This document shows positions 10,214 to 17,747 of a DNA stretch of 40,973 bases, one piece after another. A program made the translations under genes and the position numbers. Each line of letters opens with the position of its first letter. Position 1 is the first letter of the stretch. This DNA comes from Gammaproteobacteria bacterium (GTDB taxonomy: Bacteria; Pseudomonadota; Gammaproteobacteria; Acidiferrobacterales; SPGG2): positions 1 through 40,973 of the forward strand of contig JAOTYM010000029.1 in the NCBI GenBank assembly GCA_029861845.1, given 5' to 3'. Under the pieces are notes generated by a model. The model did no database searches. It saw only the letters and a program-made list of their open reading frames with translations, and had not been told where the DNA came from.

Positions 10214-13200
10214 ATGAACAATCACGACACACTTGATCGTCTATGTCGACTCTGCGGCATCGAGCCGGAATACACGGATATCTGGGGTAAGCTCCATCGC
10301 GCCCCCGAACAAATAAAGCATAAGTTGCTCACCGCGATGGGTGTAATGGTGAACGACGAGGCCTCGCTTCGCGCCGCGTTGGCAGACCGTGAAATCCGAG
10401 CTTGGCGTCGTCTACTTGCACCGGTGCAGGTCGTGTCCCAGGCTTCCTCACCAGTTACCATCCCTATCACGCTTCCGCAAGCGCGCGCGCGAGAACCGCT
10501 TCGCTGGTCGCTTTTATTGGAGAGCGGTGAACGCTTCGATGGAGAGGTGAGCCCCGCCTCACTTCCAAGAATAGAGGAAGCGCACATCGACGAAGTGCCC
10601 AGTGTACGAATCGCCTTTTTGCTACCGCATAACCCTGGTCTCGGCTACCACTGCTTCGAGATCACGAACGCCGACGGTGGTCCGATTGAGCATGGTACGC
10701 TGCGACTCATCGTCGCGCCGGAGCACTGTTATCGTCCGCCTGCCTTGACTGATGACGGACGTGTGTGGGGATTGGCTATCCAACTGTACGCGTTGCGATC
10801 CAAGCGCAACTGGGGAATCGGCGATTTAACAGATCTGCGGGCACTAACAGCGGCTTGCGCCGAATGGGGCGCTGACATCATCGGTGTGAATCCACTGCAT
10901 GCCTTGTTTCCACATAACCCAGCACACGCGAGTCCCTACAGCCCTTCAAGCCGGCTTTTCATGAACATCCTTTATATCGACATCGAGGCGATGCCCGAGT
11001 TCGCCGACTGTCCAACCGCCCAACACCTTGCTCGATCCACCGAACATCAAGCACGACTGCAAGCACTACGGAAAGCGCCGTTGGTGGATTATGTCGGCGT
11101 AGCCACGGCAAGACGAACGGTGTTGGAAGAGCTGTATAAACATTTCCGAAAAAAGCACTCGCTGCCCGACACGGCATACGCTAAGGCGTTTCAAAGTTTT
11201 CAGGCGAGCGCCAGCGATGCGTTAGTTCGTCACTGCGTTTTCGAAGCATTACAGGAACACTTTTTTCGCCAGGACCCCACGGTATGGGGTTGGCCGGTAT
11301 GGCCTGAGGCTTATCGCAATCCGGACTCCGAGGAAGTCTCTGCGTTTGCTAGCGCTAATAACGAGCGCATTGAATTTTTTCAGTACTTACAGTGGCACCT
11401 CGACCAGCAGCTCGCCGCTATCGAAGACCAGGTTCGGAATCTGGGCCTGGCTATCGGTTTGTATACAGACCTCGCAGTAAGCATCGACCGGGGTGGGGCT
11501 GAGGCTTGGGCCAATCAAAACCTTTATGCGACTGATGTAAGCATCGGTGCCCCGCCCGACGATTTTAATCTTAATGGCCAGGAATGGGGTTTACCACCCT
11601 TCATTCCAGAAGCGCTCATCGAGTCGGCGTATACATCTTTCATTGCTACGCTACGCGCTAACATGCGTCACGCCGGTGCACTGCGCATTGACCATGTCAT
11701 GGGCCTCATGCGTTTGTTCTGGATACCGGCAGGCACGCCGCCTGCCGAGGGTGCTTACGTGCGCTATCCGTTTGCGGACCTGCTCGGCATCGTGGCCCTC
11801 GAGAGTCATCGTAACCGCTGTCTCGTCATCGGCGAGGATCTCGGCACCGTTCCGGACGAGGTACGCATCGCACTTAAGGCTGCTGGCGTGCTGTCCTATC
11901 GTGTAGCCTACTTCGAGAAGGACAATGCTGGTGTGTTCAAACCACCGGCTGCTTATCCTCGCCAGGCCGTCGTCGCCATCAGCACCCACGACCTGCCTAC
12001 CTTGGCCGGATTTTGGGCAGAGCGTGACCTCGAGGAACGCGCCGAACACAACCTGTTTCCTTCGGATGAGGCGCGACAGCAACTGACATGCACCCGCATG
12101 CAGGACCGACACCGTATGTTGTTTGCGCTGGATAAGGAACAACTCTTGCCTGATAGTTTGTCATACGATTCATCCTCTCTGCCGCCAATGTCTTCGGCGC
12201 TGGCGCAGACGCTGCACGTCTATATGGCCCGCAGTCCCGCCCAACTAATGATGGTTCAGTTAGAAGACGTGCTGGGCCAACGCGAACAGGCAAATCTTCC
12301 TGGCACCACCGATCAACGACCCAACTGGCGCTATAAACTCACTCTCGATCTGGAAGACTTGGTGCGCGACGACCGGATGATCAATATAGCGTCGGCACTG
12401 TCCCGCGAGCGGGGTACTACTCTTAAGAAGGCCCGCGCGCAACCGCTATCAACCCTAATTCCTCGAGCCACGTACCGCTTACAGCTTAATCGAGATTTCA
12501 CGTTTGCCGCTCTAACAGAATTGGTCCCTTATCTGCGCGATCTCGGCATCAGCCATTGTTACTGCTCATCCTATCTCAAGGCACGTGCCGACAGTCATCA
12601 CGGCTACGATATTGTCGACCATAACGCGTTAAACCCGGAAATCGGTAGCGTCGAAGACTACGAACGTTTCGTAAAAACATTGCGGCAAAACGGATTGCAC
12701 CAGATCCTCGACGTCGTCCCCAATCATATGGGAGTCGGTGGCGATGACAACGACTGGTGGTTGGATGTCCTAGAAAACGGTCCGTCTTCAACTTATGCGT
12801 GTTTCTTCGACATCGATTGGTATCCAACCAAAGACGAAATGCGCGGCAAGGTGCTGTTACCCGTACTGGGAGAGCACTACGGTCAGGTACTGGAAAACGG
12901 CGGACTCAAGCTTGGTTTCGAGGCCGAATTCGGTGCGTTCAGCGTTCGCTACTACGACCATCGCTTCCCTATCGACCCCAAGACTTACCCGTATGTACTG
13001 GCCCACGATGTTCCCAGACTGGAACAGTCCCTGGGTCGCGCCCACCCGCACCTAAAGGCGCTCCAGACCTTGATCAATGACTTTGACAGCCTGCCTGGGC
13101 GGAACGAAGTCGATTCGGTCCGACTGGAGGTGCGCCGTCGCGACAAAGACAATCACAAGGCACGCTTGGCTGCTCTGTGTGTTCGCTGTGTAGCAATTCG

Positions 13201-15373
13201 TGAGTTTATAGAGGCGAACGTCAATACCCTGAACGGCGTAGCGGGCAATCCAGCAAGTTTTGACCTGCTGCACGCGCTGCTCGACGTACAGGCTTATCGA
13301 CCGGCTTATTGGCGAGTTGCTGCCGACGAGATTAATTACCGTCGTTTCTTCGATATCAATGAGCTCGCCGGATTGCGGATGGAGAATCTTCTGGTGTTCG
13401 ATGCTACACACGCGTTTATCCGTGATCTCGTTAAACAGGGAACAGTGACCGGACTGCGCATCGATCACCCCGACGGCTTTTACGACCCAGCGCAATACTT
13501 TGCACGTTTACAAGACAGTATAATGATCGAACAGCAGAATCTATCTTCGTCCAGCCACGGTACCGACGCTAACATACCGCCTCGACGGCCGTATGTGTTG
13601 GCCGAAAAAATCCTCGCAAGCCACGAACACCTGCCGCTGGAATGGCCGATTGACGGCACAACCGGTTACGAATTCGCGAATCTAGTAAACGGTTTGCTAG
13701 TACACGCGCCGTCGCAGCGGGAGATGGATCGCATTTATCGTCGATTCGTCGGCCGTATTATCGACTTTGATGAGCTTCTTTATGAGCGTAAGAAACTTAT
13801 CGTAAGAACCACGCTCGCGAGTGAGCTTAACGTGCTCGCGAACCAACTTAATCGCGTGTCCGAGTCAGACCGGTGCACGCGTGACTTCACGCTGACGGCG
13901 CTACGCAATGCATTGATGGAGGTGGTAGTCTGTTTTCCGGTATACCGGACTTATGTCACAGCCGACCGAGTAAGCGCAGAAGACTGTCGTTATGTGGACT
14001 GGGCCATCGCGCAGGCAAAGAAACATAGCCTTGCCGTCGATTTAAGTATCTTTGACTTCATTCGGGACATCTTGCTACTAAATGGGCTCGAACAACGCCC
14101 GTTGGGCTACCGCCAGCCGGTGGTCGAATTCGCCATGCGGTTCCAGCAATACACGGCCCCGGTTATGGCCAAGGGACTGGAGGACACCAGCTTCTACATC
14201 TACAACCGATTAGTGTCGCTTAACGAGGTCGGCGGGGACCCGCGCCGCTTCGGCATCTCCGTAGCCGCCTTCCACCGCGCCAACCAAGAGCATACGCAAC
14301 GTTGGCCGCACACAATGCTTTGCACCTCTACCCACGATACAAAACGCAGCGAGGACGTACGTGCGCGTATCAATGTGCTTTCTGAGATCCCCGATGAGTG
14401 GCGACAGCATGTAGGTCGCTGGCGTCGGGTGAACCGAAGGCGGAGGCGCAAGCTCAATGGCGAATGGGCACCCAGTGCCAACGACGAGTATTTACTGTAC
14501 CAGACGCTGGTCGGCGCCTGGCCATCGCACGAAATGGACGAGGCACACCTGACCGCATTTCGCGAACGCATCGAAGCCTACATGCTCAAGGCAGTAAAAG
14601 AGGCTAAGATCCACACGAGTTGGATCAATCCGAACACGGATTACGAAGATGCGGTCATACATTTCGTGCACGTGCTACTGTCGTCAACAGAAAAAAATCC
14701 ATTCCTTGTCGATTTTATCCCGTTCGTAAGACGCGTCTCATGGCTAGGAATGTTTAATAGTCTGAGCCAGGTGTTGCTCAAGCTCACCTCGCCTGGCGTG
14801 CCCGACATCTACCAAGGTAACGAGGTTTGGGACTTCAGTCTCGTCGATCCGGACAATCGCCGGCCGGTCGACTACGCGCGTAGACAGGCATTGCTGCGAG
14901 AGTTGGAAACATTGGTCGACGCGCCAGACCTAGGTCTGGCGCCGCGGGTACGCGGTCTACTCGCGTCGATGGAGGATGGCCGTGTCAAGCTATATCTGAC
15001 ATGGCGTGCGTTATCGCTGCGCAAACAGAATCAGGACGTCTTCGAGATGGGTGAATATCGGCCCCTAGCCATCCATGGCCCCCGAGCCGATCATCTCTGT
15101 GCGTTCGCGCGTCTGCACAGGCGATCGGTTGTCATCACTGTTGTGTCAAGGTGGTTCGCAAAACTGACCCCGCCTGATGAATTGCCTTTGGGTGAGACCG
15201 TCTGGTCAGACACGTGGGTGGAGGCGCCATTCAATGACACGGATGCAGCCTACACCAACGTGCTCACACAGGAAGCGGTCAAAACGAAAGAACACGATGG
15301 CGATGCCTGCCTGGCGGTGCCTGAGCTCCTGGCCAATTTCCCAGTCGCCCTCCTCGAGCGGGCCGGGCGATGA
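10214..15373 (+). CDS. treY: MalQ-TreY fusion: 4-alpha-glucanotransferase / malto-oligosyltrehalose synthase
   Basis: This is a single 1719-residue chain. Residues about 1-735 are a MalQ amylomaltase (GH77) with an N-terminal extension, the nucleophile D493 in LRIDHVMGLMRLFWIP and the acid E541 in VIGEDLGTVPDEVR. After a linker, residues about 750-1719 are TreY (GH13_26), starting at ATYRLQLNRDFTF with the nucleophile D1084 in GLRIDHPDGFYDP and the acid E1131 in YVLAEKIL. MalQ redistributes short malto-oligosaccharides; TreY turns the reducing end of long ones into a trehalosyl unit, which TreZ cuts off. Fusion would feed lengthened chains directly to TreY. Both catalytic sets are present, so neither half looks decayed. 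This architecture is known in some proteobacteria. It ends the operon at TGA, facing tspO convergently. Confidence 0.95.
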   Translation: MNNHDTLDRLCRLCGIEPEYTDIWGKLHRAPEQIKHKLLTAMGVMVNDEASLRAALADREIRAWRRLLAPVQVVSQASSPVTIPITLPQARAREPLRWSLLLESGERFDGEVSPASLPRIEEAHIDEVPSVRIAFLLPHNPGLGYHCFEITNADGGPIEHGTLRLIVAPEHCYRPPALTDDGRVWGLAIQLYALRSKRNWGIGDLTDLRALTAACAEWGADIIGVNPLHALFPHNPAHASPYSPSSRLFMNILYIDIEAMPEFADCPTAQHLARSTEHQARLQALRKAPLVDYVGVATARRTVLEELYKHFRKKHSLPDTAYAKAFQSFQASASDALVRHCVFEALQEHFFRQDPTVWGWPVWPEAYRNPDSEEVSAFASANNERIEFFQYLQWHLDQQLAAIEDQVRNLGLAIGLYTDLAVSIDRGGAEAWANQNLYATDVSIGAPPDDFNLNGQEWGLPPFIPEALIESAYTSFIATLRANMRHAGALRIDHVMGLMRLFWIPAGTPPAEGAYVRYPFADLLGIVALESHRNRCLVIGEDLGTVPDEVRIALKAAGVLSYRVAYFEKDNAGVFKPPAAYPRQAVVAISTHDLPTLAGFWAERDLEERAEHNLFPSDEARQQLTCTRMQDRHRMLFALDKEQLLPDSLSYDSSSLPPMSSALAQTLHVYMARSPAQLMMVQLEDVLGQREQANLPGTTDQRPNWRYKLTLDLEDLVRDDRMINIASALSRERGTTLKKARAQPLSTLIPRATYRLQLNRDFTFAALTELVPYLRDLGISHCYCSSYLKARADSHHGYDIVDHNALNPEIGSVEDYERFVKTLRQNGLHQILDVVPNHMGVGGDDNDWWLDVLENGPSSTYACFFDIDWYPTKDEMRGKVLLPVLGEHYGQVLENGGLKLGFEAEFGAFSVRYYDHRFPIDPKTYPYVLAHDVPRLEQSLGRAHPHLKALQTLINDFDSLPGRNEVDSVRLEVRRRDKDNHKARLAALCVRCVAIREFIEANVNTLNGVAGNPASFDLLHALLDVQAYRPAYWRVAADEINYRRFFDINELAGLRMENLLVFDATHAFIRDLVKQGTVTGLRIDHPDGFYDPAQYFARLQDSIMIEQQNLSSSSHGTDANIPPRRPYVLAEKILASHEHLPLEWPIDGTTGYEFANLVNGLLVHAPSQREMDRIYRRFVGRIIDFDELLYERKKLIVRTTLASELNVLANQLNRVSESDRCTRDFTLTALRNALMEVVVCFPVYRTYVTADRVSAEDCRYVDWAIAQAKKHSLAVDLSIFDFIRDILLLNGLEQRPLGYRQPVVEFAMRFQQYTAPVMAKGLEDTSFYIYNRLVSLNEVGGDPRRFGISVAAFHRANQEHTQRWPHTMLCTSTHDTKRSEDVRARINVLSEIPDEWRQHVGRWRRVNRRRRRKLNGEWAPSANDEYLLYQTLVGAWPSHEMDEAHLTAFRERIEAYMLKAVKEAKIHTSWINPNTDYEDAVIHFVHVLLSSTEKNPFLVDFIPFVRRVSWLGMFNSLSQVLLKLTSPGVPDIYQGNEVWDFSLVDPDNRRPVDYARRQALLRELETLVDAPDLGLAPRVRGLLASMEDGRVKLYLTWRALSLRKQNQDVFEMGEYRPLAIHGPRADHLCAFARLHRRSVVITVVSRWFAKLTPPDELPLGETVWSDTWVEAPFNDTDAAYTNVLTQEAVKTKEHDGDACLAVPELLANFPVALLERAGR

Positions 15374-15453: not shown

Positions 15454-15930
15454 CTAGGGATTCAATCGCCAGATCTCGAAATTCAGATACCCAGCGAAGG
15501 AGACCCAAGCGATGTAGGGCAGAAACAATACCCCGGCAACCGTATTAACCTTCCAGAAAGCAACCGCCGTCGCCACGATAGCGCACCACACGAGGATGAT
15601 ATCAATGAAGGCGAGGCCAGGCTCATGCAGTCCAAAGAACAACCACGACCATATCGCGTTGAGAAACAACTGAAGGCCGAATAGCGACAACGGAAGGATT
15701 CGGCTCGCGGTTGCGCTTCGCCACACTAGCCACGCCGCGACCGCCATCGCAAGATAGAGCGCCGCCCACACTGGCGCGAATATCCAATTCGGAGGTGTCA
15801 GCGGCGACTTGTATAACTGTTGGTACCACTCGCCCGGCTGAAACTGAGCGCCAACGGCTGATACGCCAAAGCAGATCACTACAAACAGCACGAGCATAAG
15901 CATCGACTGCCATCTTGGTTGATTTGCCAT
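15454..15930 (-). CDS. tspO: TspO/MBR family membrane protein
   Basis: This 158-residue protein has five predicted membrane helices and the TspO/peripheral-benzodiazepine-receptor signatures: SPLTPPNWIFAPVWAALY after helix 1, a tryptophan-rich WSWLFFGLHEPG loop, and the C-terminal YIAWVSFAGYLNFEIWRLN. Bacterial TspO proteins bind tetrapyrroles and affect porphyrin efflux or stress signalling; the role here is not shown by the sequence. ATG 15930 shares one base with the stop of the upstream DUF1722 fusion gene (TGATG), so translation is probably coupled. TspO is often found near photolyase or carotenoid genes, so sitting next to a possible UV-repair gene suggests a light-stress unit; this is inference. 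Confidence 0.93.
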   Translation of the reverse strand: MANQPRWQSMLMLVLFVVICFGVSAVGAQFQPGEWYQQLYKSPLTPPNWIFAPVWAALYLAMAVAAWLVWRSATASRILPLSLFGLQLFLNAIWSWLFFGLHEPGLAFIDIILVWCAIVATAVAFWKVNTVAGVLFLPYIAWVSFAGYLNFEIWRLNP

Positions 15931-16640
15931 CAGTGTTCTGCCTCAGCCAGCCAGACGCTAAGCTCGCCTAAAGCGGTCGAGTGTATCAGATAGTTACATC
16001 CACAAATCAACGATGTTCGCTGCATAGTAGACAGAATGTTCTTCGGCTTCATGTCATTGACATAACCACTCGCGTCCTCAACATGCCGTGATACGTGACC
16101 CCACATATGTTGCAAGGCATTGGCAAGGCGACCAGATGATGGCGGGCAACGAAGGATCTCCACAAGTTCCAAGGCAACATCATCAAACATCTCTAGCTTC
16201 TTCGCAGCGGCGAGACTTTGACCTAGTGCCTTGCATCTTTCCGGGTCGCGCGCCAGGACAGAATATTTATGCTGGGCCCAGAGCTCTTGGGTACTTACCG
16301 GTAGTGGGATTCTACCCGGCCGTTTGTTTCGATATTTCTTTGCCAGCAACGCAAATTGTGCCGCTGGCGGATCTATATAGCGTGATGGCCAACGGTCGAC
16401 TTCCCCCACAATAGTGACTGGAGACTGTTCCCTAAATCCACGCAGTGACATTTCTGCCTGCAACATCGCATGACGTTGCGCCAAGGCCCCGTTACAGCCC
16501 TTCCAACGCAGGGTTTCGGGGTGTTTAGCGTAACCTTTTTTGTCATTTACAAGGATAGAGACGATCCCATGCAACTCGCGGTGTTCGCCTAACAGGCTCT
16601 TATCGTTCAGGTAGCCTGGGTTGATGTCCCAAATTCGCAT
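15930..16640 (-). CDS. Pyrimidine-dimer-glycosylase-like domain fused to DUF1722
   Basis: This 236-residue protein appears to have two domains. Residues 1-75 resemble the T4 endonuclease V/pyrimidine dimer glycosylase family: GEHRELHG (residues 18-25) aligns with the T4 AEYREL segment, placing R21 and E22 over the catalytic-site Arg and Glu, and the C-terminal LRGF ends the domain as in T4. The T4 catalytic Thr2 has no counterpart: the protein starts MRIWDIN. Residues about 118-230 match DUF1722 (YbgA-like), with WAQHKYSVLARDP and GRLANALQHMWGHVSRHV. DUF1722 is otherwise found with DUF523 (TudS-like) and near photolyase. The start is 16 bases after the agmatinase-like gene, and the stop overlaps tspO. 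A role in UV-damage repair is inferred; activity is unknown. Confidence 0.75.
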   Translation of the reverse strand: MRIWDINPGYLNDKSLLGEHRELHGIVSILVNDKKGYAKHPETLRWKGCNGALAQRHAMLQAEMSLRGFREQSPVTIVGEVDRWPSRYIDPPAAQFALLAKKYRNKRPGRIPLPVSTQELWAQHKYSVLARDPERCKALGQSLAAAKKLEMFDDVALELVEILRCPPSSGRLANALQHMWGHVSRHVEDASGYVNDMKPKNILSTMQRTSLICGCNYLIHSTALGELSVWLAEAEH

Positions 16641-16656: not shown

Positions 16657-17631
16657 TTACTTTCGAGGTGGCGCTTCTTTTCGGCAGGCAAACATATTGA
16701 TCAGCTCGTACACCAAGGTGGCCGCGGCGAGTGAGGTGATCTCTGCGTGGTCATAGGCGGGGGCCACCTCGACGACATCGGCGGAAACGATACTGAGGCC
16801 CGAAAGTCCACGCAACACATTGACCAGCTCACGGGTCGTCATGCCGGCAATCTCGGGGGTGCCGGTGCCGGGGGCATGGGCCGGATCGAGCACGTCGATA
16901 TCTATCGACAAGTACAATGGGTTATCGCCGACACGGTCACGGATGCGTTTGACGACCCCCTGTATGCCTTCGGTTTCAAAGTCATCGCAATGAACCACTT
17001 TAAAACCTAACTCCTCGTCTTGCTTAAGATCATCGGTGCTGTACAGCGGACCCCGGATGCCCACGTGCATGGAGGCATGATCTAGGAATAGTTTCTCTTC
17101 GGCCGCACGGCGAAACGGCGTACCGTGCGTGTAGGGTGCACCAAAATACGTGTCCCAGGTATCAAGATGGGCGTCGAAGTGCACTAGCGCTACCGGGCCC
17201 ACATGGTGATTAACCGCCCGCAGCAGCGGTAGTGCGATCGTATGATCGCCGCCCAAACTAACGACACTGCCCGCCTTTCCCAGCAGCTCGGTGGCCGAGG
17301 TCTGGATCTGCTCTACCGCTTCATTGATGTTGAACGGATTGCAGGCGACATCCCCGGCATCTGCAACCTGTTGCTTCACAAAGGGCTCGGCGTCATAGGC
17401 GGGGTGGTATTGCGTCCTCAGGTGACGAGACGCTTGTCGAATCGCCTGGGGCCCAAAACGTGCCCCCGGTCGATAGCTTGTACCGGCATCGAAAGGTATG
17501 CCAAGGATCGCCACATCACAGTGCGATACGTCACGCAGCTCGGGAAGTCGCGCGAAGGTTGAAGGCCCGGCATAACGTGGTACGACCTTACCGCTTACAG
17601 GTTGGATCGGTTTTTCATTATCGCTTGGCAT
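16657..17631 (-). CDS. speB: Agmatinase/ureohydrolase family enzyme
   Basis: This is a manganese ureohydrolase that splits a guanidino compound into urea and an amine. Metal ligands are all visible: H130 in SLGGDHTIALP, the D153/H155/D157 set in VHFDAHLDTWD, and D244/D246 in SIDIDVLDPAHAPGTGTPE. The frame opens at 17673, but the methionine at 17631 (MPSDNEKPIQPV) starts nearer the conserved domain and gives 324 residues, normal for the family. Agmatine is the commonest substrate, but guanidinobutyrate, guanidinopropionate and guanidine hydrolases share these motifs, so speB is only the best guess. It heads a probable operon with the DUF1722 fusion and tspO (gaps of 16 and -1 bases). No other polyamine gene is nearby. 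Confidence 0.88.
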   Translation of the reverse strand: MPSDNEKPIQPVSGKVVPRYAGPSTFARLPELRDVSHCDVAILGIPFDAGTSYRPGARFGPQAIRQASRHLRTQYHPAYDAEPFVKQQVADAGDVACNPFNINEAVEQIQTSATELLGKAGSVVSLGGDHTIALPLLRAVNHHVGPVALVHFDAHLDTWDTYFGAPYTHGTPFRRAAEEKLFLDHASMHVGIRGPLYSTDDLKQDEELGFKVVHCDDFETEGIQGVVKRIRDRVGDNPLYLSIDIDVLDPAHAPGTGTPEIAGMTTRELVNVLRGLSGLSIVSADVVEVAPAYDHAEITSLAAATLVYELINMFACRKEAPPRK

Positions 17632-17747
17632 GTTTTCAAGAGAGCGCGGTTCAGGCGCACGATGTAAGAACACATCATGCTACCCCAAAGCTCAATCATT
17701 TGCATGCCTGGCAATCCTCAGAACCACCAGTACTCCGGTTGCATAAT

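Follow-up and report, generated by a model that had tools for sequence, protein, structure and literature searches.

A gene on the minus strand of the analysed window (the whole stretch of 40,973 nucleotides of gammaproteobacterial DNA) encodes, at 15930..16640, a 236-aa protein in which a PF03013 domain akin to T4 endonuclease V, a pyrimidine dimer glycosylase, is joined to a C-terminal DUF1722 domain, PF08349. This PF03013-DUF1722 fusion is genuine and occurs in many lineages; it most likely represents an endonuclease V-type glycosylase/AP lyase that uses the N-terminal amine of Met1 as its nucleophile. We estimate at about two in three (0.66) the probability that it is a DNA-repair N-glycosylase/AP lyase of this type assisted by DUF1722 as an accessory domain. 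The identity of its domains, its fold and the register of its active site are established by computation. No description of the fusion was found in the literature searched. The architecture is probably already listed in databases, since published counts for DUF1722 (74.4% fused to TudS, 21.4% alone; PMC11417400) leave about 4% for further architectures.

The initial annotation, made from the DNA letters and their translations, had proposed that DUF1722 is fused here to a segment resembling the T4 pyrimidine dimer glycosylase, and this proposal is borne out by Pfam, by the fold and by the active-site register. HMM searches matched PF03013 (pyrimidine dimer DNA glycosylase) to aa 1-74 (E=6.3e-23, 81.4 bits; curated cut-off 23) and DUF1722/PF08349 to aa 125-189 (E=3.5e-9, 37.4 bits; curated cut-off 22.5); both matches exceed their curated cut-offs, which excludes chance. 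The source genome contains a single copy of PF03013 and a single copy of PF08349, both within the fusion gene. Full-length homologs are 47-60% identical over the entire protein, hence the called ORF is a real, intact gene. Its stop overlaps the start of tspO (15454..15930, minus strand; PF03073, E=1.9e-47) as previously noticed, with one base in common in the junction TGATG at 15928-15932 (minus strand). An arginase/agmatinase-family gene (16657..17673, minus strand; PF00491, E=7.5e-98) lies 16 nt upstream of the fusion. Elsewhere in the window, positions 10214-15373 are occupied by a single 1719-aa ORF, by eye a 4-alpha-glucanotransferase joined to a maltooligosyl trehalose synthase.

The glycosylase domain covers aa 1-110 (16311..16640, minus strand). 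An AlphaFold2 model of the fusion, computed from an alignment of the window protein with 30 homologs (31 sequences), reached a mean pLDDT of 93 and a pTM of 0.90. Its comparison with T4 endonuclease V had been set beforehand as a test able to refute the assignment, and it recovered the all-helical endonuclease V fold, 2end aligning with a Z of 10.0 and an rmsd of 3.1 over 103 residues, with residues 1..110 of the model paired with residues 2..132 of 2end. Four T4 endonuclease V entries were the sole matches above Z 5 in VIA-align 2 (Z 9.6-10.0, 103-107 residues, rmsd 3.1-3.6), and the best unrelated chain scored Z 4.4. Because more than 5 Z units separate these entries from that chain, and because of the Pfam match, we regard the predicted relationship of the N-terminal domain to T4 endonuclease V as secure. 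The endonuclease V part, which the initial annotation had confined to residues 1-75, extends to residue 110 in the model. Foldseek alone ranked T4 endonuclease V third with poor E-values (1.4-3.4), and the match was weak (E=0.03) when hhalign compared the fusion profile directly with T4 DenV by itself; T4 DenV itself matches the PF03013 model with E=3.7e-14. At about 21% identity, the fusion and T4 endonuclease V have in common the fold, the Arg22/Glu23 motif, the Arg that follows the nucleophilic residue and the position of the N-terminal alpha-amine. They differ in the nucleophile, which is the processed Thr2 in T4 and would be Met1 in the fusion, and in the additional C-terminal DUF1722 domain of the latter. 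Bacterial PF03013 proteins that stand alone (about 109-153 aa, of the MRIW/MRLW type, e.g., L037 and L081) share the N-terminus and Arg21/Glu22 with the fusion but are devoid of DUF1722.

T4 endonuclease V relies on its N-terminal amine and on a catalytic Glu, residue 22 once the protein is processed (PMC3285167). Met1 is lost upon processing, and the enzyme uses the alpha-amine of Thr2, located one residue ahead of a conserved Arg. The lack of Thr2 in the fusion, initially perceived as leaving the nucleophile in question, is an artefact of numbering: Met1 aligns with T4 Thr2 in sequence, in structure and in the PHROG profile of the phage enzyme, where residues 1-35 of the fusion fall on positions 2-36 in the same register. 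The alignment of T4 DenV with the window protein is free of gaps between the N-terminus and the Arg-Glu motif and keeps a constant one-residue offset, thereby placing Arg21-Glu22 (16575..16580, minus strand) over T4 Arg22-Glu23, as first proposed, and Arg2 over T4 Arg3. Methionine preceding arginine is not known to be a substrate for methionine aminopeptidase. Because Met-Arg (16635..16640, minus strand) should not be cleaved, the catalytic position would be filled by the Met1 alpha-amine, Met1 being expected under these rules to be retained and unblocked. Judging from alignment and model, this amine probably takes the place of the alpha-amine of the processed T4 Thr2.

Across 76 distinct PF03013-type proteins, the start codon directly precedes the conserved Arg/His column in 75; in 53 of the 76 the start is forced, as an in-frame stop lies ahead of it and no alternative start codon intervenes, and a GTG or TTG start occurs at this fixed column in seven. 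The sole exception, L092, begins with Met-Thr-Arg as T4 does; processing would bring it into the register of the others. Glu22 is invariant (76/76), and Arg21 and Arg2 are present in 74 and 75 of these proteins, respectively. One homolog search was biased by its pattern, MRIWDINP, but profile searches free of that bias led to the same result. In RudS/TudS proteins, by contrast, the position of the first cysteine varies by member from residue 10 to 18 (PMC11417400, Table 1). The family provides a natural experiment on the N-terminal-amine mechanism, as the amine is kept in place either by an uncleavable Met-Arg or by a cleavable Met-Thr-Arg.

We infer the following glycosylase/lyase chemistry for the fusion. 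The active site would reside in the very basic N-terminal domain (aa 1-110; median pI of 9.7 across 46 fusions), where the alpha-amine of Met1, uncleaved since residue 2 is Arg, would attack C1' of the damaged nucleotide. Glu22 would contribute to proton transfer and stabilise the imine, and beta-elimination would then nick the strand. In DNA, the lesion would be a photodimer of pyrimidines or a base lesion akin to it. Finally, in what is the weakest step of this scheme, DUF1722 would tune or place the glycosylase through contact with nucleic acid or with a partner, as DUF1722 may do beside the RudS desulfidase; by this analogy, a tuning or positioning role of the fused domain is probable.

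The same Schiff-base chemistry could also operate on a DNA substrate other than a UV dimer, such as AP sites or ring-opened or oxidised bases in dark-living bacteria, a reading that we consider rather unlikely. Many carriers of the fusion belong to the sulfate reducers, the cable bacteria, the Mariprofundaceae or other lineages of sediment or groundwater, habitats that we partly assume from the lineages and in which UV is presumably scarce, so that the natural lesion may differ from a UV dimer. Moreover, a viral relative, the chlorella virus PDG, incises oxazolone, an oxidised guanine product (PMC4918129). However, no conserved neighbour suggests oxidative repair, and the sequence does not reveal the substrate.

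Against the favoured reading of a glycosylase for photodimers or related lesions stands the genomic context, as the fusion does not lie close to photolyase, with which it shows neither enrichment nor depletion. Among the 99 neighbouring ORFs found beside 31 homologs, no family occurs more than four times, methyltransferases and DUF1499 being the leading ones, and neither tspO nor photolyase belongs to the 25 commonest neighbour families. The TspO of the window, used as a phmmer query against the ORFs neighbouring the 31 homologs, gave no match. The coupling of the fusion to tspO put forward by the initial annotation thus holds for the local overlap but does not reflect a general link, and it was rejected as a functional clue, being neither conserved nor kept in the sister species. 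Photolyase is encoded by 3/31 fusion carriers. In a sample of 247 genomes from the Desulfonema phylum, 57 encode photolyase, i.e., 3/10 fusion carriers and 54/237 others (p=0.70); the absence of photolyase as a sign of its replacement by the fusion was dropped on these figures. In the same 247 genomes, RudS-type proteins, assigned by frame length and match position, were enriched with photolyase (17/46 versus 40/201; Fisher p=0.019, relatedness being ignored).

The 46 fusion proteins come from several phyla, and full-length homologs were retrieved from Desulfobacterota, Mariprofundaceae, some Gammaproteobacteria, SAR324, Delongbacteria, Calditrichota, Nitrospirota and Acidobacteria records. 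The fusion is present in 10 of the 247 genomes sampled from the Desulfonema phylum and in all ten loci examined from family f33 (L042-L050 and L053). The 56 other genomes of the window's own order are devoid of it, save for one fragment. Also counting against the favoured reading, most of the gene is lost in the sister species: the frame is broken after codon 44 (L038:5001-5162, L055:1501-1662), right behind the arginase gene, which is kept (95% identical in L038), and tspO is gone. This mosaic distribution and loss suggest that the fusion spreads by horizontal transfer. Searches of phage and plasmid collections with the fusion gave no match, nor did PADLOC; viral contigs yielded one stand-alone 117-aa relative of the glycosylase domain (L073:4001-4351). 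A single origin of the fusion is not settled by the tree, in which the T4 and MRLW groups form long branches. The truncation in the sister species, a mark of dispensability, would fit a protein that has kept the fold and lost glycosylase activity to become a damage sensor or a DNA-binding protein. Such a loss is nonetheless extremely improbable, as the conservation of Arg2, Glu22 and the fixed N-terminus over the 46 fusions points to retained catalysis.

The C-terminal half of the repair glycosylase that we favour is an all-helical DUF1722 domain (aa 112-236; 15933..16307, minus strand; Pfam core 16074-16268). The view that DUF1722 has no settled function, from which the initial annotation started, is out of date. 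RudS (TudS-DUF1722) is a desulfidase that removes s4U from tRNA, an activity that DUF1722 alone (YbgA) does not display; modelling puts its DUF1722 on the anticodon arm of tRNA, and its genes often belong to light-responsive or photolyase operons (PMC11417400). RudS adjoins photolyase in several of the genomes examined here, and ybgA, which codes for DUF1722 in E. coli K-12, overlaps phr by four bases. Together with the fusion, these arrangements make it plausible that DUF1722 takes part in photodamage biology, but they amount to association, not to demonstrated function. DUF1722 would gain a third partner in pyrimidine and light-damage biology, after the TudS desulfidase and the neighbouring photolyase. 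Like the fusion, RudS carries a C-terminal DUF1722 on a catalytic domain whose target is a nucleic-acid pyrimidine, a target that is predicted in the case of the fusion. Unlike RudS, the fusion lacks the TudS domain (PF04463 is absent from P0001 and present in L066 and L067) and the Fe-S cysteines, is not beside photolyase, and bears a divergent, shortened and non-basic DUF1722. YbgA likewise ties DUF1722 to a pyrimidine-dimer repair enzyme, the substrate of the fusion being predicted, but does so as a stand-alone protein whose separate gene overlaps the photolyase gene phr, with no fusion to a glycosylase.

Profile comparison with hhalign relates the fused domain to the DUF1722 of RudS with a probability of 97.0 (E=1.2e-10), and PF08349 scores above its cut-off in all 31 carrier genomes. 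This alignment reaches 107 columns and stops ahead of the last conserved stretch, and the HMMER match on the fusion is limited to positions 1-68 of the 117 positions of PF08349; from these alignments, the last stretch of DUF1722 seems to be missing from the fusion. Modelled separately (pLDDT of 91.7), the domain gave nothing above Z 2.2 against PDB folds and no match against BFVD. A DALI search with the DUF1722 of RudS was also negative (PMC11417400). The median pI of the fused DUF1722 is 7.1 (n=46 fusions), compared with 8.1-10.3 for eight RudS domains and 9.6 for YbgA. This lack of basic character argues against simple binding of nucleic acid by the fused domain, for which positioning the enzyme or contacting a partner is an equally likely role.

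These features also bear on whether the enzyme acts on RNA, chiefly tRNA, with DUF1722 docking as in RudS and the glycosylase domain excising or opening a photodamaged pyrimidine. The homology of the fused domain to the DUF1722 of RudS, which acts on tRNA and whose DUF1722 is modelled on the anticodon arm, is consistent with this reading, which is improbable, as the basic charge of the RudS and YbgA domains is absent from the fused one. Furthermore, to our knowledge members of the T4 endonuclease V family act exclusively on DNA. That DUF1722 guides a glycosylase of the pyrimidine-dimer type to photodamaged RNA, such as UVA-crosslinked tRNA, is very improbable; if it did, the fusion would be the first RNA-acting glycosylase of the T4 endonuclease V type, a destructive counterpart of RudS. 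Full-length canonical ThiI is encoded by 7/31 fusion carriers, by 13/247 genomes of their main (Desulfonema) phylum and by 0/46 carriers of RudS-type proteins there. ThiI being rare across the whole phylum, its lack in carriers is no argument against a tRNA role, and we dropped it as such. In most genomes of this phylum, where RudS-type proteins occur in about 46, weak ThiI-type matches were observed that resemble a weakly ThiI/MnmA-like PP-loop protein carrying an NFACT-R_2 RNA-binding domain, found in the source genome itself (C113; L078:625-1686) and at L079:499-1494. This protein is a candidate alternative tRNA thiolase.
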